The notes under the pieces were generated by a model, which saw only the letters and a program-made list of their open reading frames with translations, searched no databases and was not told the origin of the DNA. From Orobanche coerulescens (taxonomy: Eukaryota > Streptophyta > Magnoliopsida > Lamiales > Orobanchaceae): a DNA stretch of 64,000 bases. Of this stretch, positions 3,750 to 58,157 are shown one piece after another (within the stretch, counting starts at the first letter, position 1; each line of letters starts with the position of its first letter). Both the position numbers and the translations under genes were made by a program. Where the stretch lies: the NCBI GenBank assembly GCA_033398695.1, contig CM065801.1, positions 5,642,001-5,706,000 of the forward strand, read 5' to 3'.

Positions 3750-4033
3750 AAGGCTAAATAAATGAAAAGACAATGACAGATACCAAATTATGAAATCACT
3801 GAAAATACATTTCGACAGTTCTGGTTCAATACCGAAAATACAGATATCCAAAGGAGAATATTAATACACCACTGAAATCCAAACATCACAAATTACGACG
3901 TACTCGAGTACTTATTAAAATAACCAACAACAGATAATAAACCCGACCGGAACATCACTCTGCACCCTCGTCGTCATGCAGCTCCAGTGGTTGTTTCCCC
4001 GCTCTCCTGGATCCTGAACATAAACAAATGTTC

Positions 4034-4063
4034 ACCCCCGAAGGAGTTAGCACAACGATGCTA
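4034..4063 (-). other. Stem-loop pair of F LTR, second loop UUCG
   Basis: Minus strand TAGCA-TCGTTG-TGCTA (4048-4063), followed at once by ACTCC-TTCG-GGGGT (4034-4047). As RNA the second is a C(UUCG)G tetraloop. The preceding block CTTGTACTAG is shared with D and, as CTTGCACTAG, with A, B and G. Confidence 0.65.
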
Positions 4064-4183
4064 GTACAAGTACAATAATCATACAACAGTGATGTAATCA
4101 ACAATCATCATAACAAGTTTCTCCAACGAGAAATAACAACAACACTTATCACATCAGAACAGTCTCAACATACTGATGGTATT

Positions 4184-6907: not shown

Positions 6908-6910
6908 AAC

Positions 6911-13570: not shown

Positions 13571-13959
13571 GTATTTGTGTGAACAAGATTTGCGTATCTT
13601 GGGTGATTATGTTGTGTTGATTTTATGCCCATCGAGGACACGTGACGTGGATTTTAACCCCGTGAATTGTTGGTTTTATTTGTGAAAACAAAAACCTTTG
13701 AGCTGTGACCCCTGTTGATTTTTGGAAAGAGAAGGATTCGATAATCCCAAATTGTTTTCTATTAAAACTCCTGATGGCTTATTAAACCATTTTATAAATT
13801 GTTTCTCTCGAATTGTGATCTTTCGATTTTGGAATGTTTTACCCAAACTCTTACCTCGGGAAGTACTTGTTTTTACGTTTGAATCTTGGAGGATTTCCTG
13901 GTTATTATTGTTCTTGGAACTTGAATCGTATGGCTCGTATTTGCACTTTGTACTTGCAC

Positions 13960-14003
13960 TAGCAAAATAGTGGAATTTTGCTAACCCCCGAGTAATCGGG
14001 GGT
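13960..14003 (+). other. Adjacent stem-loop pair, A LTR 1
   Basis: TAGCAAAAT-AGTGGA-ATTTTGCTA (13960-13983, nine perfect pairs) is followed with no gap by ACCCCCGA-GTAA-TCGGGGGT (13984-14003, eight perfect pairs, a GNRA-type loop as RNA). About 360 bases before the LTR end. In B and G the first stem is TAGTAAAAC/GTTTTACTA: two changed base pairs, both compensated. Confidence 0.85.
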
Positions 14004-14299
14004 GCATGTCTGTATTGCATTCAGGTTTTGGGGGGCATAGCACAGGGTCGGCATGAAGGATGATGAAAGATGATCGATACTAATCACATGAGGACCCGTT
14101 TATTGTTGTATTGGTTTAGTTGTATTTTATTTCCGCTGCAGTATTCTTTCCCCGTTGTACGGGAGTGTGTTGTATTCGACCCCTACGTGGGCATGTATTG
14201 TGATTGAGTTGTATGCACTTATTTAAAGAACAAATCGGTCTACTGAGTCATTTTAGCCTTAAAGGCATTGTTGAGTTGTTCGATTTTGTTACCAGTCTG

Positions 14300-14324
14300 G
14301 TAGAACCTTGAGGAAAGGTTCTAC
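14300..14324 (+). other. Terminal stem-loop, A LTR 1
   Basis: GTAGAACCTT-GAGGA-AAGGTTCTAC, ten perfect pairs, flanked by GCC on the left and GGC on the right that can extend the stem. It ends 37 bases before the LTR end and about 42 before the primer site. Confidence 0.8.
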
Positions 14325-14365
14325 GGCGTGTAATATCCCTTTGGAGATTGGGGGTGTTACATAAA

Positions 14366-14382
14366 TGGTATCGGAGCTTAGG
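14366..14382 (+). other. Primer-binding site, A internal 1
   Basis: TGGTATCGGAGCTTAGG, four bases after the LTR end. It matches the plant initiator tRNA-Met primer site TGGTATCAGAGC with one difference. Confidence 0.85.
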
Positions 14383-15639
14383 TTGTGGAAACCTAACCTG
14401 TCGGGTTTAGTAGTGTCTGTTGAGTTTTTGTCTAGTCGGATTTTGTCTGACAGAGTCGTGTCGCGACGCGTCGTCTAAGTTGGTTGGTCGTGATTAGTAT
14501 CGTGGGGCGATCATCATCTTCGTGCGACCTGTGGATGTAAATCTCCCTTCTTTGTGATTGTGCCTCGTCTGATGCGAGCTACTGGTATGATTATCTATTA
14601 AGTGATGGAATCTTTATGCAGATTCTCGGTTTCATAATGCGTTTATGTGACTCTCATGTTTCGTTTATATGAGGAGTGTTGTCATTATTTATGTCTTTTT
14701 TTACTATGATATTTGACTGATTGTTTCCGGTAAAGGACAGGTGTTGTCTTGGTTTTGAACGAGTTGATGCGTGTATTGTGATGTATATAAGTGAATGATG
14801 TTACATGTGAGTTTTTAGGCATTCTAGCCTAATAGATTTTCGAAAACCTTGAGTATCTTAGAAAATAAATTTCGAGACGTACTTTTAAAATGAATTATTT
14901 TCTCGCGGTACTTTCAAGGTGATTTCTAGTGCCGCAATATATTTCAAAATTATTCCAGTTGAGGACCAAAATATTTTGAGATATTTTCAATTATTTAGAA
15001 ATGCTTTGCTTAGACCCGAGGGTCGAATATTTCTGAAAGTTTTTCACTAAAAGGAAAGTGTCCTCGTTTTATCAAACGCAATATGGTTTTCAAAGTCTCG
15101 ACAACGATGTTTGTACAACTTTTTGAAAGGTGATACTCAAGATCAACTAGTGTTTCCAAAAATATTTTTTTTCAAAGGTGGTTTTCGTTTTTAAAACCTA
15201 TCATTCCTGTTTGCGGTCCGGGAATGTATGTTAATGTTCGCACTTTCGTTAGAGTGTTAACCCCCGAGTTGTGATTGAATTGGTGGTGTGAGTGCTGAGT
15301 CGTTCGCCACGCAATTGTTGTATTAGCCCTCGGTGATAAGTGTGATGTTGATCTTTAACGTTGTCATTCCGTAGTGATTTGCGTGCTATCGCACCTATGC
15401 GAGTTGTTAGAGCTTGGGTGTATGATTGTGTACATCTGTGATTGTTTCATGATGTTTTGTATTTGTGTGCTGGTTATCATTCGGGCCGTTGAAATCGCCG
15501 AGTGTATGTCGTCGTTGCTATGATTCTGTGTTTGTGGGCTACCTTACGTTGATATGTTGTGTGGAATTGGCATATCTGGTATGTAATTTTGCGATGTTAT
15601 ATTCCATTGTACCTAGCAGTTATATTTTCGGTATGCCGA

Positions 15640-15790
15640 GGCGCTTCGACTGTATTGTGCCGGGGGCATGTACGTACAAATTGTCCTTCTCGTCAGTAAC
15701 GCTTTTCAAGTGTGGACTCGAGGGACACAGAATTCAGTTTTGTGAATTGGTTACCGAGACTTCCGGAGTTCGCGCCTTAGCACAGACATC
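15640..15790 (+). pseudogene. Degraded two-knuckle gag tail, A internal 1
   Basis: In the frame from 15465, RRFDCIVPGACTYKL aligns with B's first knuckle and LFKCGLEGHRIQFC with its second. The second keeps three of four ligands (first Cys is Leu); the first is destroyed. ELVTETSGVRAL follows. Equivalent relics lie at about 21226-21376 and 26908-27058. An open frame around it has no capsid features. Confidence 0.6.
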
Positions 15791-15871
15791 AGGATCGGCT
15801 CTGAGAGGCCAATGGGAGATGTTTCTGTCGGTTGCTTTTTGTGTTGTTACATTGCTTTCGTTGTTGTGAGT

Positions 15872-15916
15872 TGCGGGGACGATATTTCTTTTATAAGAGG
15901 CCGAATGTAATACCCG
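15872..15916 (+). other. Inner polypurine/LTR-start-like junction, A internal 1
   Basis: GCGGGGACGATATTTC, then TTTTATAAGAGGCCGAA and TGTAATACCCG (15906). It is a recognisable but decayed version of the functional junction at 16850-16898. Copies have the LTR-start-like TGT at 21492 and 27174. Confidence 0.65.
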
Positions 15917-16385
15917 TATTATTTCTGACTTCTGCATTTTCTCCTTCTAAATTATATCGACTTGCTCGTGTTCGATGATACTTTTTGAACTTGTTTGGTA
16001 TCTCGGTTGTCATCGATCGAATGGGTTGTGACCTTGTTTTATCGTTGTGATTTTTCCGAGTTCGGTTCGATTCTTGTGAACCTTGTTCGAAAGTAACAAC
16101 TTTTAGTTTCTACCAGCTCTTTTAATGTCTTGAGTTGAAGTGTGAACTTCGAAGACATTGTTCGACTGTTGTCATTAGATCATTGTTGTTGGATCGTTGT
16201 TACTCGATCATTGATTTTCGATTGTTGTTGTTCGATCATTAGTATTGATCCTTGTTGTTCGATCATTGCTATTCGATCGTTGTTGTTCGATCGTTGTTGT
16301 TCGGTTGTTGTTGTTCGATCGAGGTTGTCTGACTGTTGTTGCCTGATCTCGTACCGTGAAGAATTGTTGTTCACCGTTAGTCTGT

Positions 16386-16427
16386 TGTTTCGAGTGTGGC
16401 CAGGTGGGCCACCGAGCCGTGCGTTGC
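16386..16427 (+). pseudogene. gag zinc-knuckle relic, A internal 1
   Basis: Same CFECGQVGHRAVRC knuckle as at 10806, following the 14-bp repeat block and about 430 bp before the polypurine tract. Confidence 0.75.
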
Positions 16428-16887
16428 GAGACAGTAGCTGAGAGATTTGGGGGATCGAGGTTGCGTCTCTGCTCCGAAAGGGCACGGAGATGCCTACTAT
16501 GCTTTTTGAGGATTTCGGCGTAGTCCGAATTGTTTGTGATTGTCCTTGTGGATCGTTTGTGTTTATTTTCTATTTTCTCGACTGTGCGTGTTTTCTTGTA
16601 ACAGGTGCTTTGTGTTTTGTGATAGTTCAGATAATCGACTTGATTGTATTATCTGTTTGACGACGCTTGTCACTTGTTGGTTTTATTATGTCTCTACCGG
16701 TGGCGTTGTGTTGGTCGTCGTGGAGCGTGTTTTCACGCCGTATATTCCTTTGCGTTGCTTGTAACGTTTCGCCGTTGGGCGTAAGTTACGTGTTTCTTGT
16801 GTATCTCGTTGAGTTTTCCTGGCGGGATATTGCTTCTGCCTACTTGTTTTAAGTTTCGGGACGAAACTTCTTTTAAGGAGGGTAGTA

Positions 16888-19800
16888 TGTAATATCCGCG
16901 ATTTTTGATTTTTGGTAATTTCTTTTTTTTTTTGCGGAAGTCCATCTTAGCGACTCTGTTATGACCACGTCATTTCTAGAATGATTAATTCTGCACTTTT
17001 TGTCATCCGAGTTTGTTTTGGTATCGTTTTGTTGAGTTACGTGTTCTTAAATGGCTTTTCCGCACTTGAGTTCGATTCTTGCGAATCTCGTTCGAAACTG
17101 TTGTTTCGAGTTTCTCGTAAGTTCATTTAATGTTATTATTCATGTTGCGAGCTTTGGCTTGGTGTTTCGATCGTGTATCGTGTATTTCGGACGTTTTGGG
17201 CCGTTTTCGTAAATTCCCAAAGTTTGGGGTAATTACTTTCCGTTGTTGAATTTCGAGCCTTCAGGTGGTCGGAATCGTGTGTTCTCTTAGCGCTTGGATT
17301 CATATTTGCGAGTACTTCGTAACCGTATCTTCGATTCATATTTAGGTTCGGGTTTCGGGGTCGTTCGGACCGTCGGAGTTGGCCACGGCCGAGTCATGGC
17401 CGCACGTGTTGGGGCATTGGCACACCTGGCCGGTTACGACCGCAAGGGTCCGGCAGTTACGGCCATAAGTCCTGTTACATACGTAAGCCCTGGCCGGTCA
17501 CATACGTAACACTGCCGGCAGATTTGGGCGGTTGGGTTGGCATGGCCGGTTACGGTCGTAAGGCCATGGCCGGTTACGGTCGTAAGCGCCCAGTAGGGTC
17601 CAGCTATTTAAGGCCTGAGCACGGGTCACTCGGCCATTTCTCCCTTTTTCTTCATTTTTCACGATCCTTCGACAGAAATTGAGGGTTTTGATCGGAAGCA
17701 TCTTAGAACAACATCTTTTGGAAGGCTTATGTTGATTATAACAAAATCTAATCCTTGTTCTTCGTCGGATGGAGGTAATTTCTTGAAATCTCCTAGAATT
17801 GACTTTTGAGATTTCCTTCTTGATTTTCATTGATCGTCTGATTTTCATGAATCGGTTGGTGTTATTGAACATTATTAATCGTGTTTTATGAATTGTATAT
17901 CCATATTTCGAGTTTGTTCAACTCGATTGGTGATTCGAGTGTTCTTGGGAGTTATCGAGCGTTAAGTGTTTGATTAAATATCCCAATGAGTTTCCCTTCG
18001 ATAGATTGGTGGGATTTCAGTTGTTTTTTTACCTTGATTCCCATTGTAATCATATCTTCGTTGTTTTTATTGTTCCTTCCGGGGGATTATAGGTGCTCGA
18101 GGATTCCGTGTTGAATCCCGTTTGGTGATTGATAATTCGTATGGAGTTATTCTCGTAGTACTCGTGGTGCTATCGCATGCTTGATAGTGTTCGGGGGTTC
18201 GGGGCTGTTCGATCGTATCCCATCCGTCGTCTCGTTGTGATTGTGGTTTTGAGGCAAGTACCTTGTCCATACATCTCTCGTTTTGTGGATATAATGATCG
18301 GTGATTGTCTTGCTATGTTTGTTTGATTGTTTGAGATAAATTTTCAAAAGATTCGGTTTAGCCTCATCAAAGGCTCACTTTCAAAACTTGTGTGTTTTGC
18401 GAATGTCGTGTCTCGTGAATGGTTAAGTGAACCCTATGAATACGCTAGGTATTGTTGTTTTGCTTTGATAATATATATACATATATTATCTCATTTCGGC
18501 ACGTTGTGATTTGACCATTGTGTCGTGGTTTGTGTTTGTTGCCTTTGGGTGAATTGCTTGAATATCCTTGGTGTATATAATTGTGTGAACGCATTTGCTC
18601 ACCTCGGGAGGGTCCGACGGGGCCATGGAAGGAATCCAATGGTATAGACCTGGATTCACGAGTTGGTGTGTATATGATTTGTGAACGCATTTGCTCACCT
18701 CGGGAGGGTCCGACGGGGCCACGGAGGGAATCCAATGGTATACCCCGGATTCACGAGTTGGTGTGTATATGATTTGTGAATGTATTTTACTCACCTCGGG
18801 AGGGTCCGACGGGGCCACGGAGAGAATCCAATGGTATAGCCCTGGATTCACGAGTTGGTGTGTATATGATTTGTGAATGTATTTTGCTCACCTCGGGAGG
18901 GTCCGATAGGGCCACTGAGGGAATCCAATGGTATAGCCCTGGATTCACGAGTTGGTGTGTATATGATTTGTGAATGTATTTTGCTCACCTCGGGAGGGTC
19001 CGACGGGGCCACGGAAGGAATCCAATGGTATAGCCCTGGATTCACGAGTTGGTGTGTATATGATTTGTGAATGTATTTTGCACACCTCGGGAGGGTCCGA
19101 CGGGGCCACGGAGGGAATCCAATGGTATAGCCCTGGATTCACGAGTTGGTGTTGTATTTGTGTGAACAAGATTTGCGTATCTTGGGTGATTATGTTGTGT
19201 TGATTTTATGCCCGTCGAGGACACGTGACGTGGATTTTAACCCCGTGAATTGTTGGTTTTATTTGTGAAAACAAAAACCTTTGGGCTGTGACCCCTGTTG
19301 ATTTTTGGAAAGAGAAGGATTCGATAATCCCAAATTGTTTTCTATTAAAACTCCTGATGGCTTATTAAACCATTTTATAAATTGTTTCTCTCGAATTGTG
19401 ATCTTTCGATTTTGGAATGTTTTACCCAAACTCTTACCTCGGGAAGTACTTGTTGTTGCGTTTGAATCTTGGAGGATTTCCTGGTTATTATTATTCTTGG
19501 AACTTGAATCGTATGGCTCGTATTTGCACTTTGTACTTGCACTAGCAAAATAGTGGAATTTTGCTAACCCCCGAGTAATCGGGGGGTGGATGTCTGTATT
19601 GCATTCAGGTTTTGGGGGGCATAGCACAGGGTCGGCATGAAGGATGATGAAAGATGATCGATACGAATCACATGAGGACCCGTTTATTGTTGTATTGGTT
19701 TAGTTGTATTTTATTTCCGCTGCAGTATTCTTTCCCCGTTGTATGGGAGTGTGTTGTATTCGACCCCTGCATGGGCATGTATTGTGATTGAGTTGTATGC

Positions 19801-19945
19801 ACCTATTGAAAGACCAAATCGGTCTACTGAGTCATTTTAGCCTTAAAGGCATTGTTGAGTTGTTCGATTTTGTTACCAGCCTGGTAGAACCTTGAGGAAA
19901 GGTTCTACGGCGTGTAATATCCCTGAGCGGATTGGGGGTGTTACA
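16888..19945 (+). repeat. Array A full LTR 2 (3058 bp)
   Basis: Near-identical to LTR 1. Palindromes before the TATA box at 17604, six 97-bp units (18578-19154), stem-loop pair at 19543-19586 (one extra G in the second hairpin) and terminal stem-loop near 19885-19909. Confidence 0.9.
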
Positions 19946-22501: not shown

Positions 22502-25500
22502 TGTAATATCCGCGATTTTTGATTTTCGGTAATTTTTTTTTTGGTGGAAGTCCATCTTAGCGACTCTATTATGACCATTCCGTCATTCCTAGAATGATTA
22601 ATTCTGCACTTTTTGTCATCCGAGTTCGTTTCGGTATCGTTTTGTTGAATTCCGTGTTCTCAAACGGCTTTTCCGCACTTGAGTTCGATTCTTGCGAATC
22701 TCGTCCGAAACTGTTGTTTCGAGTTTCTCGTAAGTTCATTTAATTCATGTTGCGATCCTTGGCTTGGTGTTTCGATCGTGTATCGTGTATTTCGGACGTT
22801 TTGGGCCGTTTTCGTAATTTCCCAATGTTTGGGGTAATTACTTTCCGTTGTCGAATTTCGAGCCTTCGGGTGGTCGGAATCGTGTGTTCTCTTAGCGCTT
22901 GGATTCGTCTTTGCGTGTACTTCGTAACCGTATATTCGATTCATATTCAGATTCGGGTTTCGGGGTCGTCCGGACTGTCGGAGTTGGCCACGGCCGAGTC
23001 ATGGCCGCACGTGCTGGGGCATTGGCACACCTGGCCGGTTATGGCCGCAAGGGTCCGGCAGTTACGGCCGTAAGGCCTGTTACGTACGTAAGCCCTGGCC
23101 GGTTACGTAACACTGTCGGCAGATTTGGGCAGTTGGGTCGGCATGGCCGGTTACGGCCGTAAGGCCATGGCCGGTTACGGCCGTAAGCGCCCGGCAGGGT
23201 CCGACTATTTAAGGCCTGGGCACGGGTGCCATTTCTCCATTTTTCTTCATTTTTCGCGATCCTTCGACAGAAATTGAGGGTTTTGATCGGGAGCATCTTA
23301 GAACAACATAATTTGGAAGGCTTATGTTGATTATAACAACATCTAATCCTTGTTCTTCGTCGGATCGAGGTAACTTCTTGAAATCTCCTAGAATTGACTT
23401 TTGAGATTTCCTTTTTAATTTTCATTGTTCGTCCGATTTTCATGAATCGGTTGGTGTTATTGAACATTATTAATCGTGTTCTATGGATTGTATATCTGTA
23501 TTTCGAGTTAGTTCAACTCGATTGGTGATTCGAGTGTTCTTGGGAGTTATCGAGCGTTAAGTGTTCGATTAAATATCCCAATGAGTTTCCCTTCGATAGT
23601 TTGGTGGGATTTCCGTTGTTTTTTACCTTTATTCCATTTGTAATCGTATCTTCGTTGTTTTTATTGTTCCTTCCGGAGGATTATAGGTGCTCGAGGATTC
23701 CGAATTGAATCCCGTTTGGTGATTGATAATTCGTGTGGAGTTATTCTCGTAATACTCGTGTTTGATAGTGTTCGGGGGTTCGGGGCTATTCGACCGCATC
23801 CCATCCGTCGTCTCGTTGTGATCGTGGTTTTGAGGCAAGTACCTTATCCATACATCTCTCGTTTTGTGAATATAATGATCGGTGATTGTCTTGCTATGTT
23901 TGTTTGATTGTTTGAGATAAATTTTCAAAAGATTCGGTTTAGCCTCGTCAAAGGCTCACTTTCAAAACGCGTGTGTTTTGCGAATGTCGTGTCTCGTGAA
24001 TGGTTAAGTGAACCCTATGAATACGCTTGGTATTGTTGTTTTGCTTTGATAATATATATACATATATTATCTCATTTCGGTACGTTATGATTTGACCATT
24101 TTGTCGTGGTTTGTGTTTGTTGCCTTTGGGTGAATTGCTTAAATATCCTTGGTGTATATAATTGTGTGAACGCATTTGCTCACCTCGGGAGGGTCCGACG
24201 GGGCCACGGAGGGAATCCAATGGTATAGCCCTGGATTCACGAGTTGGTGTGTATATGATTTGTGAACGCATTTGCTCACCTCGAGAGGGTCCGACGGGGC
24301 CACTGAGGGAATCCAATGGTATAGCCCTGGATTCACGAGTTGGTGTGTATATGATTTGTGAATGTATTTTGCTCACATCGGGAGGGTCCGACGGGGCCAC
24401 GTAGAGAATCCAATGGTATAGCCCTGGATTCACGAGTTGGTGTGTATATGATTTGTGAATGTATTTTGCTCACCTCAGGAGGGTCCGACGGGGAGGCCAC
24501 GGAGGGAATCCAATGGTATAGCCCTGGATTCACGAGTTGGTGTGTATATGATTTGTGAATGTATTTTGCTCACCTCGGGAGGGTCTGACTGGGCCACGGA
24601 GGGAATCCAATGGTATAGCCCTGGATTCACGAGTTGGTGTGTATGTGATTTGTGAATGTATTTTGCTCACCTCGGGAGGGTCCGACGGGGCCACGGAGGG
24701 AATCCAATGGTATAGCCCTGGATTCACGAGTTGGTGTGTATATGATTTGTGAATGTATTTTGCACACCTCGGGAGGGTCCGACGGGGTCACGGAGGGAAT
24801 CCAATGGTATAGCCCTAGATTCACGAGTTGGTGTTGTATTTGTGTGAACAAGATTTGCGTATCTTGGGTGATTATGTTGTGTTGATTTTATGCCCGTCGA
24901 GGACACGTGACGTGGATTTTAACCCCGTGAATTGTTGGTTTTATTTGTGAAAACAAAAACCTTTGGGCTGTGACCCCTGTTGATTTTTGGAAAGAGAAGG
25001 ATTCGATAATCCCAAATTGTTTTCTATTAAAACTCCTGATGGCTTATTAAACCATTTTATAAATTGTTTCTCTCGAATTGTGATCTTTCGATTTTGGAAT
25101 GTTTTACCCAAACTCTTATCTCGGGAAGTACTTGTTGTTACGTTTGAATCTTGGAGGATTTCCTAGTTATTATTATTCTTGGAACTTGAATCATATGGCT
25201 CGTATTTGCACTTTGTACTTGCACTAGCAAAATAGTGGAATTTTGCTAACCCCCGAGTAATCGAGGGGTGGATGTCTGTATTGCATTCAGGTTTTGGGGG
25301 GCATAGCACATGGTCGGCATGAAGGATGATGAAAGATGATCGATACTAATCACATGAGGACCCGTTTATTGTTGTATTGGTTTAGTTGTATTTTATTTCC
25401 GCTGCAGTATTCTTTCCCCATTGTACGGGAGTGTGTTGTATTCGACCCCTGCGTGGGCATGTATTGTGATTGAGTTGTATGCATTTATTGAAAGACCAAA

Positions 25501-28309: not shown

Positions 28310-29486
28310 AATCATCACCTTATCCTCTCCAACACATTAAATCAAGTTAATCATTTCTTGAATCTAGAATGTCGGAGTTCGAGTGTTTTTCTTCCGATCT
28401 CTTCGTGTGAGCTTGCTATGATGTTGTAATATGTTAGATATGGATTATCTTCCTTGGATCATGTATTCCTACGGATTTATTGGTGTATATTTCGGATTTG
28501 ATGAATATTGGGGGATTTATTCAAGAACCATTGGTGGTTGAGTTTGGTTATATGGGGGTTTCCGTTTGATGTTATCGTAAGCTCGATTTGAGTATTCTTA
28601 TTGGATTATCGATTGTGTCGATAGTGTTTTGTTGGATTGAATCATTCTTTAGAGGTTGGTGTTCGATACAATTGGGATTAGTTGTAAATAATGGGAGATT
28701 GGTTACAAAGTGTTTGTCGAAATGCCCCAATGAGTTTGGATTTGTGGTATCGACCTCTTGTAGTGGTTATTATCATAATTGATACGTATATTAAGCTACT
28801 TGTTGGTAATTGTGTTATTCAAGCTTGTTCGAGCGACCGATATCTCCATTAGAGACGTTTGTTCGAGAGAAGACATTTCATCACCGGTGTTGAGTACGTT
28901 AATTCTTACTCGGTTAAAGAGATATTCATTCCTTACGTTGTTGTTCATTCATACATGTAATTCACTCATAATATATCATTCATGTCTAGACTTGTAATTA
29001 TCAACTAATCATGTAACTCACGAGGAACGACGGTTCTAAATCATTTCATTGAAGCTATCACTCGTTGTATCATTATTTCATCTCGGTGAGTCGTTCTTGA
29101 TCCTTGTCGGATTTTATTCAATATCTCTCATCTTGGTCGCTTTTGTTCTTGTGACTTTCCGGGATTGTATTGCGTGACCGGGTGGCGGATGTGTGGAATT
29201 TTTAGTCGGACACACTATGGTGATATGTATATGCGGGACTCCGGGCACATTGGACTGTGCACACGGTAAAGTACCTCCGTGAGACTAATTAGGCCTAGTT
29301 ACGGGTGTATATGCGGGACTCCAGACACTCGGCTACTTGTAACTCGTACATTCCATTCGGGCGTACCATGATGCCCATCAATGAACTCTGTTTATTAATT
29401 CATTCATGTGATTGTTGTATATTGTTAAACTCTTGAGGATTGTTGTTCTGTGTAACTGACCCCGTTTGGGATATTGTTTTTAGGTC

Positions 29487-38206: not shown

Positions 38207-38514
38207 GTATAACAGTGATTGTTTGGATAACATTTTAAATGTGGGTCTCGGACTCATAATGATATCTTATCTAGTGTGTTTTGAACGAGAATCGGGCTGA
38301 GGCCCTAATGTTTACGAAAAGGTTTTGTAAATTGGGACTCGAGGTCCAAAAGAATTTCTACTTAAAAAATCCCCGAGATGATGAGTTCCTTTTCAAATAT
38401 CTCTTCTTGAGTTCGAAATTTTAAAACTTCTCGGGAACATTTGATAATGAATTTCCGTATTAAATTCGTAGTTGCTATTTACTTGTTGCATTTCGTATCG
38501 TATTATACTTGCAC

Positions 38515-38558
38515 GAGTAAAACAGTGGAGTTTTACTAACCCCCGAGTAATCGGGGGG
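38515..38558 (+). other. Adjacent stem-loop pair, B LTR 0
   Basis: GAGTAAAAC-AGTGGA-GTTTTACTA (outermost pair lost here), then ACCCCCGA-GTAA-TCGGGGGGT. Intact copies: 42898-42941, 47279-47322 and 51661-51704. Confidence 0.8.
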
Positions 38559-39621
38559 TGGATGTCTGTTTTGCGTCCAGGTACATACAGGTTCAGGGGA
38601 GCAGTCACATGATTGGCACAAGTGGATGACGAGCTGCGATACTAATCAAGAGTTGAGAGTTGCTTTGATTCTTGTAGTGTTGTCAGAGTTGATTCCAGTC
38701 TTCCGTTGTATTGTGTTTCGACCCCGGTGTGGGTAATGTTATTTTAGTCAGTTCTATTATTGGAGTAGTGTGACCTCATCGGTCGGTGTATTCATGTGTA
38801 AGTGACCTTAATGGTCTGTATTATTATATTGTTTGACCCAGGCCGGGCAAGCATTTGGTTGTTTATGGATATTTAGCCTGGTAGATCCTTGTGGAAAGGG
38901 TCTACGGCGTGTAATATTCCCATACGTTTTGGGGGTGTTACATTTATGGTATCGGAGCTTAGGTTGCGGAAACCTAGGTTTTCGGGTCGAGTCGAGTCGT
39001 GATTTGTCGAGTAATGTGTTGTCTTGTCGTTCGAGTCGTCTGATGACAAGTTGAGTTGTGCATAGTCACAACGTGTCGGATATGTTGTCGGATGAGATTA
39101 GTATCGTGGGCGACCGTCATCTCCGTGGAGCCTGTGGACGTAAGTCTCCTCTTTTATGCGAGGTACCTGTGTGTCGTGATTTTATCTAAGTGAGTTAATT
39201 GCGGTGCATAATTTTATTTGCACGGTGTTGTGAATATAGTTGTATTTAATACGTGTGACACATAGTATATGTATAAAACTGGGCCTATTGTTGTTTTACC
39301 TTTGAACCACTGTGGGGGTGGTATGGTGTGAAAATTGAGAACCTTGGTGGGTTTCGAATAAGATATCAACGATTGAGTTCGTGAGAAACTCCGAGGAATG
39401 GTTTTGTTGTATGTTTAAACTTGATGTTGTGAGATGTATTCAATTGGATTGGCGATCCTATTTGCCGTTTGGGCATGTGATTTTTAGTTTGATTGTTTTT
39501 AGATTGTTATGTGTATGCCGTTACGGGTAGGTTTTAGAATGTTCTTCCTTTTATGTTTATGTTTATGCAGTGTATGACTCCTTTTATGTGTACAACCTTG
39601 AAGGGCTATTAGGATCGAGCC

Positions 39622-40672: not shown

Positions 40673-43318
40673 TGTAATATCTGCAATTTCGATTTCTGGT
40701 AATTTTCTTTTTTCGGCGGGGGTCCGTTTCGACAACTTTCTTATGATCGTTTCGTCATTCTGAGAATGATTAATTCTGCACTTTTTGCCATCCGAGTTCG
40801 TTTCGGTATCGTTGTGTTGAGTTCTGTGTTCTTAAACGACTTTTCCGCTCTCGAGTCCGATTCTCGCAAATCTCGTCCGAAACTATTGTTTCGAGTTTCT
40901 CGTAAGTTCATTTAATGTTATTATTCATGTTGTAATCTTTGGTTTAGTGTTTCGATCGTGCATCGTGTATTTCGGACGTTTTGGGCCGTTTTCGTAATTT
41001 CCCAAAGTTTGGGGTAATTACTTCCGTTGTCGAATTTCGAACCCTCGGGTAGTCGGAATCGTGTGTTCTCTTAGCGCTTAGATTCGTCTTTGCGAGTACT
41101 TCGTAACCGTGTTTTCGGTTTACATTCAGGTCTGAGTTTCGGGATTTTTCGGACCGTCGGATCGACCGAGTCCTACCGGCAGACTGGCCGAGTAACGGCC
41201 GCTATGGCGGCGATTACGGCCGCAATGGCCGGTTACGTACGTAAGGCCCTGGCCGGTAACGTACGTAACGGGCCGGCAGATTTGGGGCAGTGGTTCGGCC
41301 ATGGCCGGTTACGGCCGTAAGCCATGGCCGATTACGTACATTATGTGGCCGGCAGTCAACCTATTTAAGACCCAGCAGACGGGTTTTTCATCATTTTTCT
41401 CACCCATTTCATCCTTTTCCGCGGCTGGAGCTTGGTTAATCATGGAGGCATGTTGTTAGACTATGAGTCTATGAAGTTTTGAGGTTCATATCATCAATCA
41501 TCCGTCCTATAACATCCTTTGATCGAGCGAATCAGGTCAGATTTCCTGGAAATCCTAGTTCTGGTAAATTGGGGGTTTTGTTCGTTTTCGTCCGATTCAA
41601 CCGTAATAACTTGGGATCGTGATGGATTGATGATTATTTAGATGTATTATATCATTTCCCTTGTTATTCCATTGTTGGATCGTATCGACTTGTTGTTTTG
41701 GTCGAGTTCTTAGTCGACGCCTTGAAGGTGTCCGACAAAAGGTCTTAAAGGGGGGGATTGGGCGTTGTGTGATTATTGTCCATCGTAAGATTTTTGATTT
41801 ATCATTGGTATGACTTAGGAACGAAATTCTTGTGAAGAACTCGAGTCGGAACCTTTCCGTTCGTTGTCTTCTTCGGGGTCCGAGCTTCCCGGTCGAACCG
41901 TGTTCTTCGGAGTATTCGGTAGTGGTTATTAAGGCAAGTATTTACTATACGAATTGTGTCTTGTGAATAGGGACGTTGTGTTATGGTTATGATGAATTGA
42001 TTTATCTTAGCGAATATGCTTCGTATGAATTGATTATTATGAACGATTGACGGTAACGATAATACCTTCACTTAGTTAACATCGTGGAATTGTGTTGGAT
42101 GTGCAAATCATCTAAGTTTGCGCCGGGCGTGGTTGGTCATTGTTGAGATGTTGTGATGATTATGATATGTGTGTTGTTTTGGTTTACATACTTGATTATA
42201 CATTTCGGTGTAATGTGGAATGGCTTGACATTTGATGATTATGAGTTGTGTCGTGTCGATGTGTGTGTGTGTTCCAGGTAGGGTCTGACGAGGCCTCTGG
42301 AATTCGGTACATGATGTGTACGAACAAGGTGTGTGATCCAGGTAGGGTCTGACGAGGCCTCTGGAGTTCGGTACATGATGTGTACGAACAAGGTGTGTGA
42401 TCCAGGTAGGGTCTGACGAGGCCTCTGGAGTTCGGTACATGATGTGTACGAACGATATTTGTGGCCGGGTAGGGTCCGTCGAGGCCTCCGGAGTTCGGTA
42501 CATGATGTGTACGAACAGTGCGTGTGGTCCGGGTAAGGTCCGTCGAGGCCTCCGGAGTTCGATACATGATGTGTACGAACAATGATCGTATAACAGTGAT
42601 TGTTTGGATAACATTTTAAATATGGGTCTCGAACTCATAATGATATCTTATCTAGTGTGTTTTGAAACGAGAATCGGGATGAGGCCCTAATGTTTACGAA
42701 AAGGTTTTGTAAATTGGGACTCGAGGTCCAAAAGAATTTCTACTTCAAAAATCCCCGAGATGATGAATTCCTTTTCAAATATCTCTTGCTTGAGTTCGAA
42801 ATTTTAAAACTTCTCGGGAACATTTGATAATGAATTTCCGTATTATATTCGTAGTTGCTATTTACTTGTTGCATTTCGTATCGTATTACACTTGCACTAG
42901 TAAAACAGTGGAGTTTTACTAACCCCCGAGTAATCGGGGGTGGATGTCTGCTTGCGTCCGTACATGCAGTTCGGGAGTAGTCACATGATTGGCACAAGTG
43001 GATGACGAGCTGCGATACTAATCAAGAGTTGAGAGTTGTTTTGATTCTTGTAGTGTTGTCAGAGTTGATTCCAGTCTTCCGTTGTATTGTGTTTCGACCC
43101 CGGTGTGGGTAATGTTATTTTAGTCAATTCTATTATTGGAGTTGTGTGACCTCATCGGTCGGTGTATTCATGTGTAAGTGACCTTAATGGTCTGTATTAT
43201 TATATTGTTTGACCCTGGCCGGGCAAGCATTTGGTTGTTTATGGATGTTTAGCCTGGTAGATCCTTGTGGAAAGTGTCTACGGCGTGTAATATTCCCATA
43301 CGGTTTTTGGGTGTTACA
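40673..43318 (+). repeat. Array B LTR 1 (2646 bp)
   Basis: TGTAATATCTGC to GTGTTACA. Palindromes before TATA near 41361, five 64-bp units (42273-42585), intact stem-loop pair 42898-42941. Terminal stem-loop near 43256-43280 with one damaged pair (AAAGTGTCTAC). Confidence 0.9.
42898..42941 (+). other. Adjacent stem-loop pair, B LTR 1
   Basis: TAGTAAAAC-AGTGGA-GTTTTACTA (nine perfect pairs) followed directly by ACCCCCGA-GTAA-TCGGGGGT. Compared with A (TAGCAAAAT/ATTTTGCTA) pairs 4 and 9 are swapped C-G to T-A and T-A to C-G, while the loop is unchanged. Confidence 0.85.
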
Positions 43319-45048: not shown

Positions 45049-47707
45049 TGTAATATCTGCAATTTCGATTTCCGGTAATTTTCTTTTTTCGTCGGGGGTC
45101 CGTTTCGATGACTCTCTTATGACCGTTTCATCATTCTGAGAATGATTAATTCTGCACTTTTTGCCATCCGAGTTCGTTTCGGTATCGTTTTGTTGAGTTC
45201 TGTGTTCTTAAACGACTTTTCCGCTCTCGAGTCCGATTCTCGCAAATCTCGTCCGAAACTATTGTTTCGAGTTTCTCGTAAGTTCATTTAATGTTATTAT
45301 TCATGTTGTAATCTTTGGTTTAGTGTTTCGATCGTGCATCGTGTATTTCGGACGTTTTGGGCCATTTTCGTAATTTCCCAAAGTTTGGGGTAATTAGTTC
45401 CGTTGTCGAATTTCGAACCCTCGGGTGGTCGGAATCGTGTGTTCTCTTAGCGCTTAGATTCGCCTTTGCGAGTACTTCGTAATCGTGTTTTCAGTTTACA
45501 TTCAGGTCTGAGTTTCAGGATTTTTCGGACCGTCGGATCGACCGAGTCCCGGCTGGCAGGACCTAGCCGAGTAACGGCTGCTATGGCCCGGCAGTTACGG
45601 CCGCAATGGCCGGTTACATACGAAAGGCCCTGGCCGGTAACGTACGTAACGGGCCGGCAGATTTGGGGAAGTGGTTCGGCCATGGCCGGTTACGGCCGTA
45701 AGCCATGGCCGATTACGTACATTATGTGGCCGGTAGTCAACCTATTTAAGACCCAGCAGACGGGTTTTTCATCATTTTTCTCACCCATTTCATCCTCTTC
45801 CGCGGCTGGAGCTTGGTTAATCATGGAGGCATGTTGTTAGACTATGAGTCTATGAAGTTTTGAGGTTCATATCATCAATCATCCGTCCTATAACATCCTT
45901 TGATCGAGCGAATCAGGTCAGATTTCCTGGAAATCCTAGTTCGGGTAAATTGGGGGTTTTGTTCGTTTTCGTCCGATTCAACCGTAATAACTTGGGATCG
46001 TGATGGATTGATGATTATTTAGATGTATTATATCATTTCCCTTGTTATTCCATTGTTGGATCGTATCGATTCGTTGTTTTGGTCGAGTTCTTAGTCGACG
46101 CCTTGAAGGTGTCCGACAAAAGGTCTTAAAGGGGGGATTGGGCGTTGTGTGATTATTGTCCATCGTACGATTTTTGATTTATCATTGGTATGACTTAGGG
46201 ACGAAATTCTTGTGAAGAACTCGAGTCGGAACCCTTCCGTTCGTTGTCTTCTTCGGGGTCCGAGCTTCCCGGTCGAACCGTGTTCTTCAGAGTATTCGGT
46301 AGCGGTTATTAAGGCAAGTATTTTACTATACGAATTGTGTCTTGTGAATAGGGATGTTGTGTTATGGTTATGATGAATTGATTTATCTTAGCGAATATGC
46401 TTCGTATGAATTGATTATTATGAACAATTGACGGTAACGATAATACCTTCACTTAGTTAACATCGTGGAATTGTGTTGGATGTGCAAATCATCTAAGTTT
46501 ACGCCGGGCGTGGTTGGTTATTGTTGATATGTTGTGATGATTATGATATGTGTGTTGTTTTGGTTTACATACTTGATTATACATTTCGGTGTAATGTGGA
46601 ATGGCTTGACATTTGATGATTATGAGTTGTGTCGTGTCGATGTGTGTGTGTGTTCTAGGTAGAGTCTGACGAGGCCTTCGGAGTTCGGTACATGATGTGT
46701 ACGAACAAGGTGTGTGATCCAGGTAGGGTCTGACGAGGCCTCTGGAGTTCGGTACATGATGTGTACGAACAAGGTGTGTGATCCAGGTAGGGTCTGACGA
46801 GGCCTCTGGAGTTCGGTACATGATGTGTACGAACGATATTTGTGGCCGGGTAGGGTCCGTCGAGGCCTCCGGAGTTCGGTACATGATGTGTACGAACAAT
46901 GCGTGTGGTCCGGGTAAGGTCCGTCGAGGCCTCCGGAGTTCGATACATGATGTGTACGAACAATGATCGTATAACAGTGATTGTTTGGATAACATTTTAA
47001 ATATGGGTCTCGGACTCATAATGATATCTTATCTAGTGTGTTTTGAAACGAGAATCGGGCTGAGGCCCTAATGTTTACGAAAAGGTTTTGTAAATTGGGA
47101 CTCCAGGTCCAAAAGAATTTCTACTTCAAAAATCCCCGAGATGATGAGTTCCTTTTCAAATATCTCTTGCTTGAGTTCGAAATTTTAAAACTTCTCGGGA
47201 ACATTTGATAATGAATTTCCGTATTAAATTCGTAGTTGCTATTTACTTGTTGCATTTCGTATCGTATTACACTTGCACTAGTAAAACAGTGGAGTTTTAC
47301 TAACCCCCGAGTAATCGGGGGGTGGATGTCTATTTTGCGTCCAGGTACATGCAGGTTCAGGGGAGTAGTCACATGATTGGCACAAGTGGATGACGAGCTG
47401 CGATACTAATCAAGAGTTGAGAGTTGTTTTGATTCTTGTAGTGTTGTCAGAGTTGATTCCAGTCTTCCGTTGTATTGTGTTTCGACCCCGGTGTGGGTAA
47501 TGTTATTTAAGTCAGTTCTATTATTGGAGTTGTGTGACCTCATCGGTCGGTGTATTCATGTGTAAGTGACCTTAATGGTCTGTATTATTATATTGTTTGA
47601 CCCTGGCCGAGCAAGCATTTGGTTGTTTATGGATGTTTAGCCTGGTAGATCCTTGTGGAAAGGGTCTACGGCGTGTAATATTCCCATACGGTTTTCGGGG
47701 TGTTACA
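45049..47707 (+). repeat. Array B LTR 2 (2659 bp)
   Basis: Same structure. Five 64-bp units (46654-46966), stem-loop pair 47279-47322, TATA near 45742. Confidence 0.9.
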
Positions 47708-49438: not shown

Positions 49439-52088
49439 TGTAATATATGCAATTTCGATTTCCGGTAATTTTCTTTTTTCGGCGGGGGTCCGTTTCGACG
49501 AATCCCATAGGACCTTTTCGTCATTCTGAGAATGATTAATTCTGCACTTTTTGCCATCCGAGTTCGTTTCGGTATCGATTTGTTGAGTTATGTGTTCTTA
49601 AACTACTTTTCCGCTCTCTAGTCCGATTCTCGCGAATCTCGTCCGAAACTATTGTTTCGAGTTTATCGTAAGTTCATTTAATGTTATTATTCATGTTGTA
49701 AGCTTTGGTTTAGTGTTTCGATCGTGCATCGTGTATTTCGGACGTTTTGGGCCGTTTTCGTAATTTCCCAAAGTTTGGGGTAATTACTTCCGTTGTCGAA
49801 TTTCGAACCCTCGGGTGGTCGGAATCGTGTGTTCTCTTAGCGCTTAGATTCGTCTTTGCGAGTACTTCGTAACCGTGTTTTCGGTTTACATTCAGGTCTG
49901 AGTTTCGGGATTTTACGGACCGTCGGATCGACCGAGTCATTGCGAGGACTGGCGAGTAACGCCGCTATGGCGGCGATTCTGCCGCAATGGCCGGTTACGT
50001 ACGTAAGGCCCTGGCCGGTAACGTACGTAACGGGCCGGCAAATTTGGGGCAGTGGTTCGGCCATGGCCGGTTACGGCCGTAAGCCATGACCGATTACGTA
50101 CGTTATGTGGCCGACAGTCAGCCTATTTAAGACCCAGCAGACGGGTTTTTCATCATTTTTCTCACCCATTTCATCCTCTTCCGCGGCTCGAGCTTGGTTA
50201 ATCATGGAGGCATGTTGTTAGACTATGAATCTATGAAGTTTTGAGGTTCATATCATCAATCATACGTCCTATAACATCCTTTGATCGAGCGAATCAGGTC
50301 AGATTTCCTGGAAATCCTAGTTCGGGTAAATTGGGGGTTTTGTTCGTTTTCGTCTGATTCAACCGTAATAACTTGGGATCGTGATGGATTGATGATTATT
50401 TAGATGTATTATATCATTTCCCTTGTTATTCCATTGTTGGATCGTATCGATTCGTTGTTTTGGTCGAGTTCTTAGTCGACGCCTTGAAGGTGTCCGACAA
50501 AAGGTCTTAAAGGGGGGGATTGGGCGTTGTGTGATTATTGTCCATCGTATGAATTTTGATTTATCATTGGTATGACTTAGGGACGAAATTCTTGTGAAGA
50601 ACTCGAGTCGGAACCCTTCCGTTCGTTGTCTTCTTCGGGGTCCGAGCTTCCCGGTCGAACCGTTTTCTTCGGAGTATTCGGTAGCGGTTATTAAGGCAAG
50701 TATTTTACTATACGAATTGTGTCTTGTGAATAGGGACGTTGTGTTATGGTTATGATGAATTGATTTTTCTTAGCGAATATGCTTCGTATGAATTGATTAT
50801 TATGAACGATTGATGGTAACGATAATACGTTCACTTAGTTAACATCGTGGAATTGTGTTGGATGTGCAAATCATCTAAGTTTGCGCCGGGCGTGGTTGGT
50901 CATTGTTGAGATGTTGTGATGATTATGATATGTGTGTTGTTTTGGTTTACATACTTGATTATACATTTCGGTGTAATGTGGAATGGCTTGACATTTGATG
51001 ATTATGAGTTGTGTCGTGTCGATGTGTGTGTGTGTTCCAGGTAGGGTCTGACGAGGCCTATGGAGTTCGGTAAATGATGTGTACGAACAAGGTGTGTGAT
51101 CCAGGTAGGGTCTGACGAGGCCTCTGGAGTTCGGTACATGATGTGTACGAACAAGGGGTGTGATCCAGGTAGGGTCTGACGAGGCCTCTGGAGTTCGGTA
51201 CATGATGTGTACGAATGATATTTGTGGCCGGGTAGGGTCCGTCGAGGCCTCCGGAGTTCGGTACATGATGTGTACGAACAGTGCGTGTGGTCCGGGTAAG
51301 GTCCGTCGAGGCCTCCGGAGTTCGATACATGATGTGTACGAACAATGATCGTATAACAGTGATTGTTTGGATAACATTTTAAATGTGGGTCTCGGACTCA
51401 TAATGATATCTTAGCTAGTGTGTTTTGAAACGAGAATCGGGCTGAGGACCTAATGTTTACGAAAAGGTTTTGTAAATTGGGACTCGAGGTCCAAAAGAAT
51501 TTCTACTTCAAAAATCCCCGAGATGATGAGTTCCTTTTCAAATATCTCTTGCTTGAGTTCGAAATTTTAAAACTTCTCGGGAACATTTGATAATGAATTT
51601 CCGTATTAAATTCGTAGTTGCTATTTACTTGTTGCATTTCGTATCGTATTACACTTGCACTAGTAAAACAGTGGAGTTTTACTAACCCCCGAGTAATCGG
51701 GGGTGGATGTCTGTTTTGCGTCCAGGTACATGCAGGTTTAGGGGAGCAGTCACAGGATTGGCACAAGTGGATGACGAGCTGCGATACTAATCAAGAGTTG
51801 AGAGTTGTTTTGATTCTTGTAGTGTTGTCAGAGTTGATTCCAGTCTTCCGCTGTATTGTGTTTCGACCCCGGTGTGGGTAATGTTATTTTAGTCAGTTCT
51901 ATTATTGGAGTTGTGTGACCTCATCGGTCGGTGTATTCATGTGTAAGTGACCTTAATGGTCTGTATTATTATATTGTTTGACCCTGGCCGGGCAAGCATT
52001 TGGTTGTTTATGGATGTTTAGCCTGGTAGATCCTTGTGTAAAGGGTCTACGGCGTGTAATATTCCCATACGATTTTGGGGGTGTTACA
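49439..52088 (+). repeat. Array B LTR 3 (2650 bp)
   Basis: Complete right-hand LTR, ends GTGTTACA at 52088. Five 64-bp units (51036-51348), stem-loop pair 51661-51704. Followed directly by C's integrase. Confidence 0.9.
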
Positions 52089-55583: not shown

Positions 55584-58157
55584 TGTAATATCCGCAATTT
55601 CGGATTTCCGGTAATTTTCTTTTTTCGGCGGAAGTCCGTTTCAACGACTCTCTTGGGACCGTTTCATCATTCTGAGAATGATTAATTATGCACTTTTTGT
55701 CATCCGAGTTCGTTTCGATATTGTTTTGTTGAGTTCCGTGTTTCTTAACGACTTTTCCGCACTCGAGTTCGATTCTTGTGAATCTCGTTCGAAATTACTG
55801 TTTCGAGTTTCCCGTAAGTCCGTTTAATTTTGTTAGACGTGTTGTGAACTTCGGTTTGGTTATTCGATCACGTATCATAATTTTCGGACGTTTTGGGCCG
55901 TTTTCGTAATTTCCCAAAGTTTGGGGTAATTACTTCCGTTGTCGAAATCCGACAATTCGGGTGGTCGGAATCGTGTGTTCTCTTAGCTCTTAGATTCGTC
56001 TTTGCGAGAACTTCATAACCGTATCTTCGATTCGTATTCAGGTTCGGGTTTCGGGGTCGTTCGGATCGTCGTTGTGGTTCGGTCGTAATTTTCGGTCTGT
56101 CTGGAGGTGGCTGGACGGACCTGTGCGACACGGACCTGAAAACGGCGCTGCCGAGCACCGTGTCTTGCGCCGGGTCGGCCAGGACCAGCAGCCTGCCGAG
56201 ACACGGCCGAGACACACGGCGCTGGTGTGGGCCGTTTGCTGCGCCGTGTTCGGCAGGGGTATAAATATGGCAGAGCAGTCGGGTTTCACCCATTTTTCTC
56301 ACTTCGTTCTTCCTCTTCCGCGGCTGGAAACTTCTTGTACGTGGAAACATGTTGTCATACAACAAATCTATGAAGTCTTGGAGTTCATATCATTGATTAT
56401 CCATCCTATAACATCCTTTGATCGAACGAATCAGGTAAGATTTCCTGGAAATCCTAGTTTGGGTAAATTGGGGTTTTTGTTGAATTTCGTCCGTTTGAGC
56501 CGTAATAACTTAGATTATTGATGGATTATTGATTATTTAGATGTATTATATCGAATTCCTTGTTATTCCATGGTTGGATCGTATCGATTCGTTGTTTTGG
56601 TCGAGTTCTTAGTCGACGCCTTGAAGGTGTCCGACAAAAGGTCTTAGAGGGGGGATTGGGCGTTGTATGATTATTATCTATCGTACGATTGTTGATTTAT
56701 CATTGGTATGACTTAGGGACAAAATTCTTGTGAAAAACTCGAGTCGGAACCCTTCCGTTCGTTGTCTTCTTCGGGGTCCGAGCTTCCCGGTCGAATCGTG
56801 TTCTTCGGAGTATTCGGTAGCGGTTATTAAGGCAAGTATTTTACTATACGAACTGTGTCTTGTGAATAGGGACGTCGTATTATTGTTGTGATGCATTGGT
56901 TTACTTTCGTGTATATGCTTCGTATGAATTGATTATTACAAACAATTGATGGTAACGATAATACCTTCACTTAGTTAACATCGTGGAATTGTGTTGGATG
57001 TGCAAATCATCTAAATTTGTGCCGGACATGGTTGGTCATTGTTGAGTCGTGATGATCATGATATTTGTGTTGTTTTGGTTTACATACTTGATTGTACATT
57101 TCGGTGTAATGTGGAATGGCTTGACATTTGATGATTATGAGTTGTGTCGTGTCGATGTGTGTGCCTGTGTTCCAGGTAGGGTCTGACGAGGCCTCTGGAG
57201 TTCGGTACATGATGTGTACGAACAAGGTGTGTGATCCAGGTAGGGTCTGACGAGACCTCTGGAGTTCGGTACATGATGTGTATGAACGATGTTTGTGGTC
57301 GGGTAGGGTCCGTTGAGGCCTCCGGAGTTCGGTACATGATGTGTACGAACAGTGTGTGTGGTCCGGGTAAGGTCCGTCGAGGCCTCCGGAGTTCGGTACA
57401 TGATGTGTACGAACAATGATCGTGTAGCAGTGATTGTTTGGATAACATTTTCAATATGGGTCTCGGACTCATAATGATATATTATCTAGTGTGTTTTGAA
57501 ACGAGAATCGGGCTAAGGCCCTAATGTTTACGAAAAGGTTTTGTAAATTGGGACTCGAGGTCCAAAAGAATTTCTGCTTTAAAAATCCCCGAGATGATGT
57601 GTTCCTTTTCAAATATCTCTTACTTGAGTTCGAAATTCTAAAAGTTCTCGGGAACATTTTGATAACTGATTTCCGTATTAAATTCGTAGTTGCTACTTAC
57701 TTGTTGCATTTCGTATCGTTTTATACTTGCACTAGTAAAACAGTGGAGTTTTACTAACCCCCGAGTAATCAGGGGGTGGATGTCTGTTCTGCATCCAGGT
57801 ACATGCAGGTTCAGGGGAGCAGTCACAGGATTGGCACAAGGGGATGACGAGCTGCGATACTAATCAAGAGTCGAGAGATGGTAGAGTTTGGTTGTATTGT
57901 TAGAGTTGATTCAGTCTTCCGCTGTATTATGTTTCGACCCCTGTGTGGGTAATGTTGTTAGTCAGTTCTGTTGATAGAGTTGTGTGACCTCATCGGTCGT
58001 TGTGTTTATGTGTAAGTGACCTTAACGGTCTGTATTAATATATTGTTTGACCCTGGCCGGGCAAGCATTTGATTGTTTATGGATGTTTAGCCTGGTAGAT
58101 CCTTGTGGAAAGGGTCTACGGCGTGTAATATTCCCATACGGTTTTGGGGGTGTTATA
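55584..58157 (+). repeat. Element G 5' LTR (2574 bp)
   Basis: TGTAATATCCGC to GTGTTATA (one change from TGTTACA). TATA box TATAAATA 56260-56267, four 64-bp repeat units (57171-57420), stem-loop pair 57733-57776 (one mismatch, TCAGGGGGT). Upstream of TATA it has ACACGG/CCGTGT motifs instead of TTACG palindromes. Confidence 0.9.
56125..56255. repeat. ACACGG/CCGTGT motif cluster in G U3
   Basis: GCGACACGGAC, GCACCGTGTC, GAGACACGGCC, GACACACGGCG and GCGCCGTGTTCGG, in both orientations, in a GC-rich stretch directly before the TATA box. Same cluster at about 61728-61860 in the 3' LTR. It replaces the 5-2-5 palindromes found in the same place in A and B. Confidence 0.6.

Follow-up and report, generated by a model that had tools for sequence, protein, structure and literature searches.

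Three successive hairpins with a splice-acceptor-like core: a probable RNA structure in the long terminal repeats of plant Ty3/gypsy elements

A large group of plant Ty3/gypsy elements very probably carries in its long terminal repeats (LTRs), on the sense strand, an RNA structure of three hairpins (H1, H2 and H3) located some 360-450 nt upstream of the LTR end. Its consensus layout is ACTTGYAC, H1 (TAG..CTA), H2 (ACYCC..GGGGT), H3 and AGG, in this order. The window analysed here is a stretch of 64,000 nucleotides of the Orobanche coerulescens genome (assembly GCA_033398695.1, contig CM065801.1, positions 5,642,001 to 5,706,000 of the forward strand). It contains nine sense copies, which belong to the families A, B and G, and one more that has diverged, belongs to family E and is on the minus strand; all ten lie within Ty3/gypsy LTRs. 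An earlier note on this DNA described a pair of adjacent hairpins with compensatory changes. Both the adjacency and the compensation are real, but the pair is part of a triple, as H3 directly follows H2. In many plants LTR retrotransposons account for much of the genome, and we know of hardly any conserved features inside plant Ty3/gypsy LTRs apart from their ends. The triple hairpin is most likely a cis-acting signal and would not be part of a gene, because it is kept where its flanks no longer align, including in elements without an open reading frame (ORF) of more than 200 amino acids. Its preservation points to an RNA feature needed for some step in the life cycle of these elements.

Copy A1 (13952..14025; all A, B and G copies are on the plus strand) consists of ACTTGCAC, H1 (13960-13983), H2 (13984-14003), H3 (14004-14022) and AGG. 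The first two hairpins lie exactly where they had been placed earlier. In copy A2 (19535..19609) H1 occupies 19543-19566, H2 19567-19587 and H3 19588-19606, followed by AGG; in A3 (25217..25291) the hairpins are at 25225-25248, 25249-25269 and 25270-25288, again followed by AGG. Family B has four copies: B1 (38507..38581), B2 (42890..42958), in which the H3 region is shortened and the AG is gone, B3 (47271..47345) and B4 (51653..51726), with H1 at 51661-51684, H2 at 51685-51704, H3 at 51705-51723 and AGG. The two G copies are at 57725..57799 (G1) and 63329..63403 (G2). All the copies listed previously are present, but two were omitted: B1, where H1 begins at 38515 with CTTGCACGAG and its first pair is broken, and the E copy. 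The H2 letters given for the whole set apply to A1, B2 and B4 only; the other six copies are one base longer in the 3' arm, which has one extra G in A2, B1, B3 and G2 and one extra base, with an A inside the G run, in A3 and G1. The distance of 360-380 nt to the LTR end is right when counted from the end of H2 (358 nt in A1, 377 nt in B2), but becomes 402 and 421 nt from the start of H1. The motif CTTGCACTAG occurs eight times in the window, compared to 0.04 expected. The AG of CCAGG or CAGG is absent at 42941-42970 and at loci L043, L072, L077, L115 and L130, and several such copies are also short of one base in homopolymer runs. The loss may be a base-calling error at methylated assembly sites rather than biology.

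The E copy (4013..4071, minus strand) shows how far the sequence can diverge. It has three hairpins followed by AGG: H1 (4048-4063) is TAGCAT-CGTT-GTGCTA, H2 (4034-4047) is ACTCC-TTCG-GGGGT and H3 (4016-4033) is GAACAT-TTGTTT-ATGTTC. A covariance model built from the nine other copies picked it up at 4023-4070 with 24 bits and an E-value of 1e-4 for the window.

The LTRs that contain the structure are long. The A2 LTR (15906..19945, plus strand) measures 4.0 kb and is followed by a primer-binding-site-like TGGTATC at 19950, the B2 LTR (40673..43318, plus strand) is about 2.65 kb and the G1 LTR (55584..58157, plus strand) about 2.57 kb. The LTR ends of A, B and G read GGGTGTTACA, and in G1 GGGTGTTATA. 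The TGGTATC primer binding site follows those A, B and G LTRs that have an internal region behind them. None of the three families has an ORF of more than 200 amino acids. The inverted LTR ends, the TGGTATC and the pol domains found in D and E place the hosts in the Ty3/gypsy class. Element D, a longer Ty3/gypsy element, has RVT_1, RT_RNaseH and SH3_Tf2-1 domains, and E has Integrase_H2C2 and SH3_Tf2-1. The E integrase pieces (6886-8569, minus strand) are 39-54% identical to their relatives among the best 120 of 3,161 matches, with Tanacetum among the named plants; no relatives were found in the viral contigs. D is represented by an LTR part from 9197, by 28310-29841 and by a second LTR from 53374, with the reverse transcriptase near 33756, RNase H at 35463 and the integrase end at 52155. 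A and B form head-to-tail LTR-internal-LTR-internal tandem arrays with periods of about 5.6 and 4.4 kb; the A, B and G spans are 10349-28309, 36492-52088 and 55584-63761, respectively. The 5' end of the first LTR of the B array (B1, from 36492) looks cut. As read from the coordinates, A, B and G seem to be inserted in D, which itself probably lies inside E.

When the last 2.3 kb of the A2 LTR are aligned with those of B4 and G2, blocks of 60 columns are mostly 36-65% identical, with about 50% identity overall. The block containing the hairpins is 84-88% identical, the following block 71-76%, and the last 92 columns of the LTR about 76-81%. Thus the hairpins have been kept where the rest of the LTR was turned over or exchanged. 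The minimum free energy fold consists of the successive hairpins H1-H2-H3 in all 12 chosen family representatives, and the sense strand folds more stably than the antisense strand in every one of them. The gaps between the hairpins are 0-1 nt in representatives other than F8b, which has a shifted H2 with four unpaired nucleotides before it; in F8 a fourth hairpin separates H2 from H3. In 10 of the 12, AGG is found at the foot of H3, either overlapping it or just after it, with AG only in F5 and GGG in the F11 copy.

A wider set of 19 representatives was cut from ACTTG to about the AG, with H3 right after H2 in most of them. Their single folds have z-scores from -4.8 to -0.7; the weakest are those of F7b (-0.7), F11 (-1.2), F3b and F8b (-1.4 each) and F8 (-1.6), some segments being badly cut. 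The members omitted from the tests on 12 families, as second members or decayed, are F3b, F4b, F6b, F7b, F9b, F10b and F1x. F6b and F10b fold into the plain three hairpins, in F4b and F9b an additional outer helix encloses the three hairpins, and one of the three is missing from each of F3b, F7b and F1x. F11 forms three hairpins only if cut at its own H3 end. Within the window, none of 200 shuffles folds as well as the H1-H2 segment of A1 (z -4.1) or B4 (z -4.4), one does for A2 (z -3.5) and two for G2 (z -3.1); the E fold is weak (z -1.4, 19 of 200). A closing stem TGC/GCA lies beneath H1 and H2 in the A1 fold, a rival 3-bp stem CAC/GTG appears in A2 and G2 if these are cut before H3, and the B4 fold has neither.

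Two compensated pairs in H1 distinguish A (TAGCAAAAT/ATTTTGCTA) from B and G (TAGTAAAAC/GTTTTACTA), as had been noticed before. In the H1-H2 model of 40 distinct copies, 97.8% of the cells are paired. At the fourth H1 pair 30 copies have CG, six UA, one UG and three another combination; at the ninth, 21 have UA, 16 CG, one UG and one another combination. Changes on both sides occur in 22 cells, compared to 8.2 +/- 2.9 in shuffled alignments (0 of 500 as many), and just two pairs vary in this way. Neither the number of pairs varying on both sides (360 of 500 shuffles) nor the number of pair types (370 of 500) is above the shuffles. The swap test for H1 is not significant (3,262 of 20,000); its outer five pairs are nearly invariant.

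The best covariation is found in H3, the hairpin that the earlier note did not list. The MAFFT alignment of the 12 families had misplaced the H3 arms, which were therefore aligned from the base by hand, and two of the 12 families were dropped as arm duplicates, leaving ten distinct arm pairs. The true partners form canonical pairs in 60 of 60 cells, versus a mean of 43.8 after swapping of the arms, with 1 of 20,000 swaps reaching 60, and Watson-Crick pairs in 50 of 60 versus a maximum of 46 among the swaps (0 of 20,000); these figures are not strict probabilities, because of the dependence among related families. Four forms are seen at pair 4 (A-T, T-G, C-G and T-A) and five at pair 6. There are 10 G-U cells and no A-C cells, although this absence and the full pairing are partly by construction, as both the representatives and the arms were taken from folds. 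What does not follow from the construction is the constant starting point of the 6-bp helix between H2 and the AG. A stem with one side changing freely, named earlier as an observation that would speak against the pairing, was found in none of the families, but 37 of 77 A/B-like copies, among them A1, have a C.U mismatch at the second H3 pair. With this covariation and the successive folds, the wider collection of LTRs backs the reading as a putative cis-acting structure in LTR RNA.

The loops are variable. The letters between TAG(C/T) and (G/A)CTA of H1 include AAAATAGTGGAATTTT, ATCGTTGT, TATTCGACG, AGTTGTC, GTAATT and more, so that the AGTGGA loop, unchanged in the related families, is not conserved beyond them. 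Similarly, all nine A, B and G copies of the window have the GNRA-type GUAA as their H2 loop, but GUAU, GUAC, GAAA, UAAA, UUCG, UUUAU, UUAAAU and UCU are found elsewhere, and a GNRA tetraloop is not a feature of H2 across the families. The H3 loops are often U-rich. The invariant parts are ACTTGYACTAG, CTAAC, the runs of C and of G and, in most cases, AGG; their constancy is partly by construction, since parts of these motifs were written into the searches.

A loose pattern, ACTTGYACTAG..CTAAC..GGGG, has 56,158 forward matches in the genome from which the window was taken (3.65 Gb), whereas its reversed control has none genome-wide; the reverse-strand figure of 110,855 counts places more than once, through overlapping matches. 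The sample comprised 40 A-like matches, 30 loci from 40 matches of a search with E, 30 LTR ends chosen only by the hairpin H5 (described below) and the primer site, being the first ones on one chromosome, 20 stretches picked for differing H5 loops and not at random, two of which repeat earlier LTRs, and 12 short stretches from other families. L120 and L121 overlap the LTRs of L083 and L090, so that 48 of the 50 loci chosen by H5 are distinct, and L002 and L044 are repeats of window copies. The pattern of H5 and primer site occurs at 23,236 forward and 23,245 reverse places and nowhere in the control, but these 46,481 matches are no test of H5, because the hairpin and its two G-U pairs were written into the pattern.

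Of the 30 LTRs that were sampled without regard to the structure, 23 have the H1 motif, at most 2 mismatches being allowed in the first 11 nt. H1 starts 388-445 nt before the LTR end in 22 of these and 716 nt in one. The remaining LTRs include three with an acceptor-like sequence of the type found in D and four with neither (L073, L085, L091 and L093). Across the 19 representatives the structure lies 360-453 nt before the LTR end. The H1 pattern has no match in the viral and genome contigs. A looser version gave 13 and 14 matches, none with H2 or H3 in the letters that follow, and these were attributed to chance. The exact 20-nt H2 has a sole viral match (L001:862-881, minus strand), whose surroundings are unlike LTRs; a T run follows, and the match is likely a terminator-like coincidence. 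Rfam has nothing in the window at gathering score, and a search of 13560-14420 at E-values up to 5 gave two weak matches, both under their gathering scores.

The mechanism ranked first, tentatively, is that the triple hairpin could be a structured, self-restraining 3' splice site. The earlier note had offered packaging, dimerisation, 3'-end formation or translation as functions, and a splice-acceptor-like core was not one of these. The CUAAC at the junction of H1 and H2 would be the branch point, the U-rich loop of H3 the pyrimidine tract and the AG/G at the foot of H3 the acceptor. The folded hairpins would bury the branch point and the AG, so that most of the RNA would stay unspliced and usable as genome, and melting of the hairpins would permit splicing. 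This reading is placed first because of the CUAAC, the position of AG/G, the similarity ending there and the open acceptor-like sequences of the D type. CUAAC is a standard branch-point sequence, the plant consensus being CTRAY. A CTRAY upstream of the AG is general: CTAAC is found in 131 of 134 copies, a count partly due to the search, which demanded CTAAC or CTAAT, and CTGAC is found in the D type. Of the 134 copies, 120 have CAG or TAG where it would be expected; the AG is absent in the other 14, of which at least one is probably a false match. The similarity between families ends just after CAGG.

Element D carries an open branch-point/acceptor-like sequence in both LTRs, where the hairpins would stand in the other families, at 29444..29484 on the plus strand (TAACTGACCCCGTTTGGGATATTGTTTTTAG/G) and in a second copy at 55243-55282. 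The D-type LTRs L083, L089, L090 and L107 have an open CTGACCCC..GGG..UUUUUAG/G and no recognisable H1 or H3. In these LTRs a U-rich tract with AG is clear (CTTTCTTTTTAG/G), whereas the hairpin families have just the U-rich H3 loop. The start of the D-type sequence is 356-606 nt from the LTR end, in a position similar to that of the hairpin structure or 50-200 nt further upstream. The motif GTAAGATTAC is found 92-93 nt upstream in L083, L090 and L107, and is absent from L089 and D. An extension of the splice-site model, itself somewhat unlikely, is that families tune or lose the fold, as in the open acceptor of the D type, and that the stacked hairpins would set the share of full-length RNA. 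Non-coding parasites would keep the fold because their genome RNA, too, must escape splicing.

Several results do not favor a splice acceptor. A matching 5' donor was not found within 1 kb upstream, most families being in the range of random sequence. In random 1-kb stretches of LTR composition the best donor score has a median of 7.4, a 95% point of 9.7 and a 10% point of 6.2. A2 (5.6), L101 (5.6) and D (6.3) score no higher than about the 10% point, and only L079 (9.8) and L097 and L104 (10.0 each) are above the 95% point. Because of this background, the probability given to the buried acceptor, and that given to the version in which the fold is tuned, were both lowered slightly. The spacing from branch point to AG is too short while H2 and H3 are both folded, so that splicing would need melting. 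The invariant 11 nt ACTTGYACTAG have no role within the model. Furthermore, A, B and G offer no long ORF that a spliced RNA could serve.

A genomic search for traces of splicing, in which the sequence downstream of the E structure would lack the preceding H3, gave one place (G000:C14:69995060-69995093); H2 and H3 are deleted there right after H1 and there is no splice junction, the pattern being so tight that the best donor candidates were excluded. In a local look for H3-less copies, the odd rows had the AG altered or shifted or were unrelated; that look was biased, as the loci had mostly been fetched by the hairpin. In many families the letters after H3 read CAG/GT, which resembles a splice donor (B4, 51722-51731, score 7.6), and in E they read CAG/GA. 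The site after H3 could thus be a donor or a two-sided site.

A packaging or dimerisation signal, with which a shared Gag would recruit the RNA of autonomous and non-autonomous families alike, is a somewhat unlikely alternative. The structure is kept both in A, B and G, with their lack of long ORFs, and in E, with its adjoining integrase pieces, and in the alignment of 12 families the unpaired ACTTGYAC on the 5' side never varies, partly owing to the way these were searched for. Retroviral packaging regions typically have several hairpins in a row, and H2 is palindromic in one copy (CCCCCGAGTACTCGGGGG, L028). However, the loops, which are the usual contacts of Gag or nucleocapsid, are the least conserved part, the structure sits in the LTR several hundred nucleotides 5' of the primer binding site, and the D-type LTRs are without recognisable H1 and H3.

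It is unlikely that the hairpins belong to an R region, comparable to the TAR and poly(A) hairpins of HIV, and act in first strand transfer, choice of the poly(A) site or transcription. The fixed distance from the LTR end in the 19 representatives, the succession of hairpins and their presence in both LTRs would agree with such a role. In A-like LTRs (A2, L087, L088, L092, L096 and L101) a TATAAAT is found 559-572 nt before the end, and if this is the promoter, the hairpins would lie within the first 200 nt of the transcript. The one copy that lost H2 and H3 just after H1 might have arisen by a reverse transcriptase skipping folded hairpins. Outside the A-like LTRs, however, there is no TATA box at a shared place, and no family has an AATAAA-like signal at a shared place.

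A nuclear export or stability element for unspliced RNA, resembling the transport elements of mouse IAP and MusD, is quite unlikely. It would explain a structure kept in non-coding elements, and according to a review it is unclear whether plant LTR elements possess motifs for export (PMC12786077), but there is no specific pointer to export in the sequence. It is very improbable that the hairpins are DNA-level inverted repeats (a site of protein binding or an integration hot spot) or gene-converted palindromes with no RNA role: perfect inverted repeats can be homogenised without selection on RNA, LTRs recombine and the similarity of A to B and G is patchy along the LTR, but the sense strand is the better folder in all 12 representatives, H3 uses G-U pairs, and the three helices stay in line while their loops vary in length and sequence.

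Tandem hairpins are well known from retroviral leaders, which contain TAR with the poly(A) hairpin as well as packaging stem-loops. The present structure is similar in being a succession of stem-loops in LTR-derived RNA, but it has three helices, belongs to plant Ty3/gypsy LTRs, and is constant at the helix feet and the 5' flank instead of the loops. Retrozymes, reportedly hammerhead ribozymes in plant LTRs, are likewise structured RNA in non-autonomous LTR elements; unlike them, the hairpins matched no Rfam family in the window at gathering score. If the structure is a splice site, the closest parallel would be the spliced plant elements Ogre, EVADE and BARE1, in which RNA that is also needed unspliced has a branch-point/acceptor-like motif (PMC12786077, PMC3735527). 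The BARE1 intron is 104 nt within gag and that of EVADE removes the protease part (PMC12786077, PMC3735527). The candidate acceptor described here differs from these introns in lying within the LTR and in probably being folded. Benachenhou et al. describe short conserved modules in otherwise variable LTRs, which the hairpins resemble, and built no models for the LTRs of plant Metaviridae because of their length variation (PMC3601003). Among the titles listed by literature searches, in a collection lacking most subscription journals, none describes such a structure for plant Ty3/gypsy LTRs, which is weak evidence of novelty. A structure present in tens of thousands of copies amid sequence turnover can serve as a marker for working LTRs and as a handle for grouping families, and would be an RNA signal common to coding and non-coding elements. 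Should splicing be under its control, it would reveal how the RNA of these elements is kept intact.

The LTR end contains a second structured block, directly 5' of the primer binding site. In A1 (14286-14361) it comprises H4 (14300-14324, plus strand; GTAGAACC..GGTTCTAC) and H5 (14329-14361, plus strand; TGTAATATCCC..GGGGGTGTTACA). Similar blocks are found in the remaining LTRs of A, B and G, in E (3687-3749, minus strand) and in D (29776-29841). The H4 arms vary among A, B, D and E, and the changes are mostly compensated, although the swap test is weak (110 of 120 versus 106.6; 443 of 20,000; 15 arm pairs from 30 matched loci of 50). The A LTRs also have 97-bp tandem repeats (12987-13583, 18571-19166 and 24152-24848), and the B and G LTRs have 64-bp repeats (37884-38203 and further copies). 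A GGTCCGACG-like motif is common to both kinds of repeat and occurs once in E. A second conserved branch-point-like motif, GATACTAATCA, is located at 14076-14086, with counterparts in B and G, about 50-60 nt after the hairpins in A and B.
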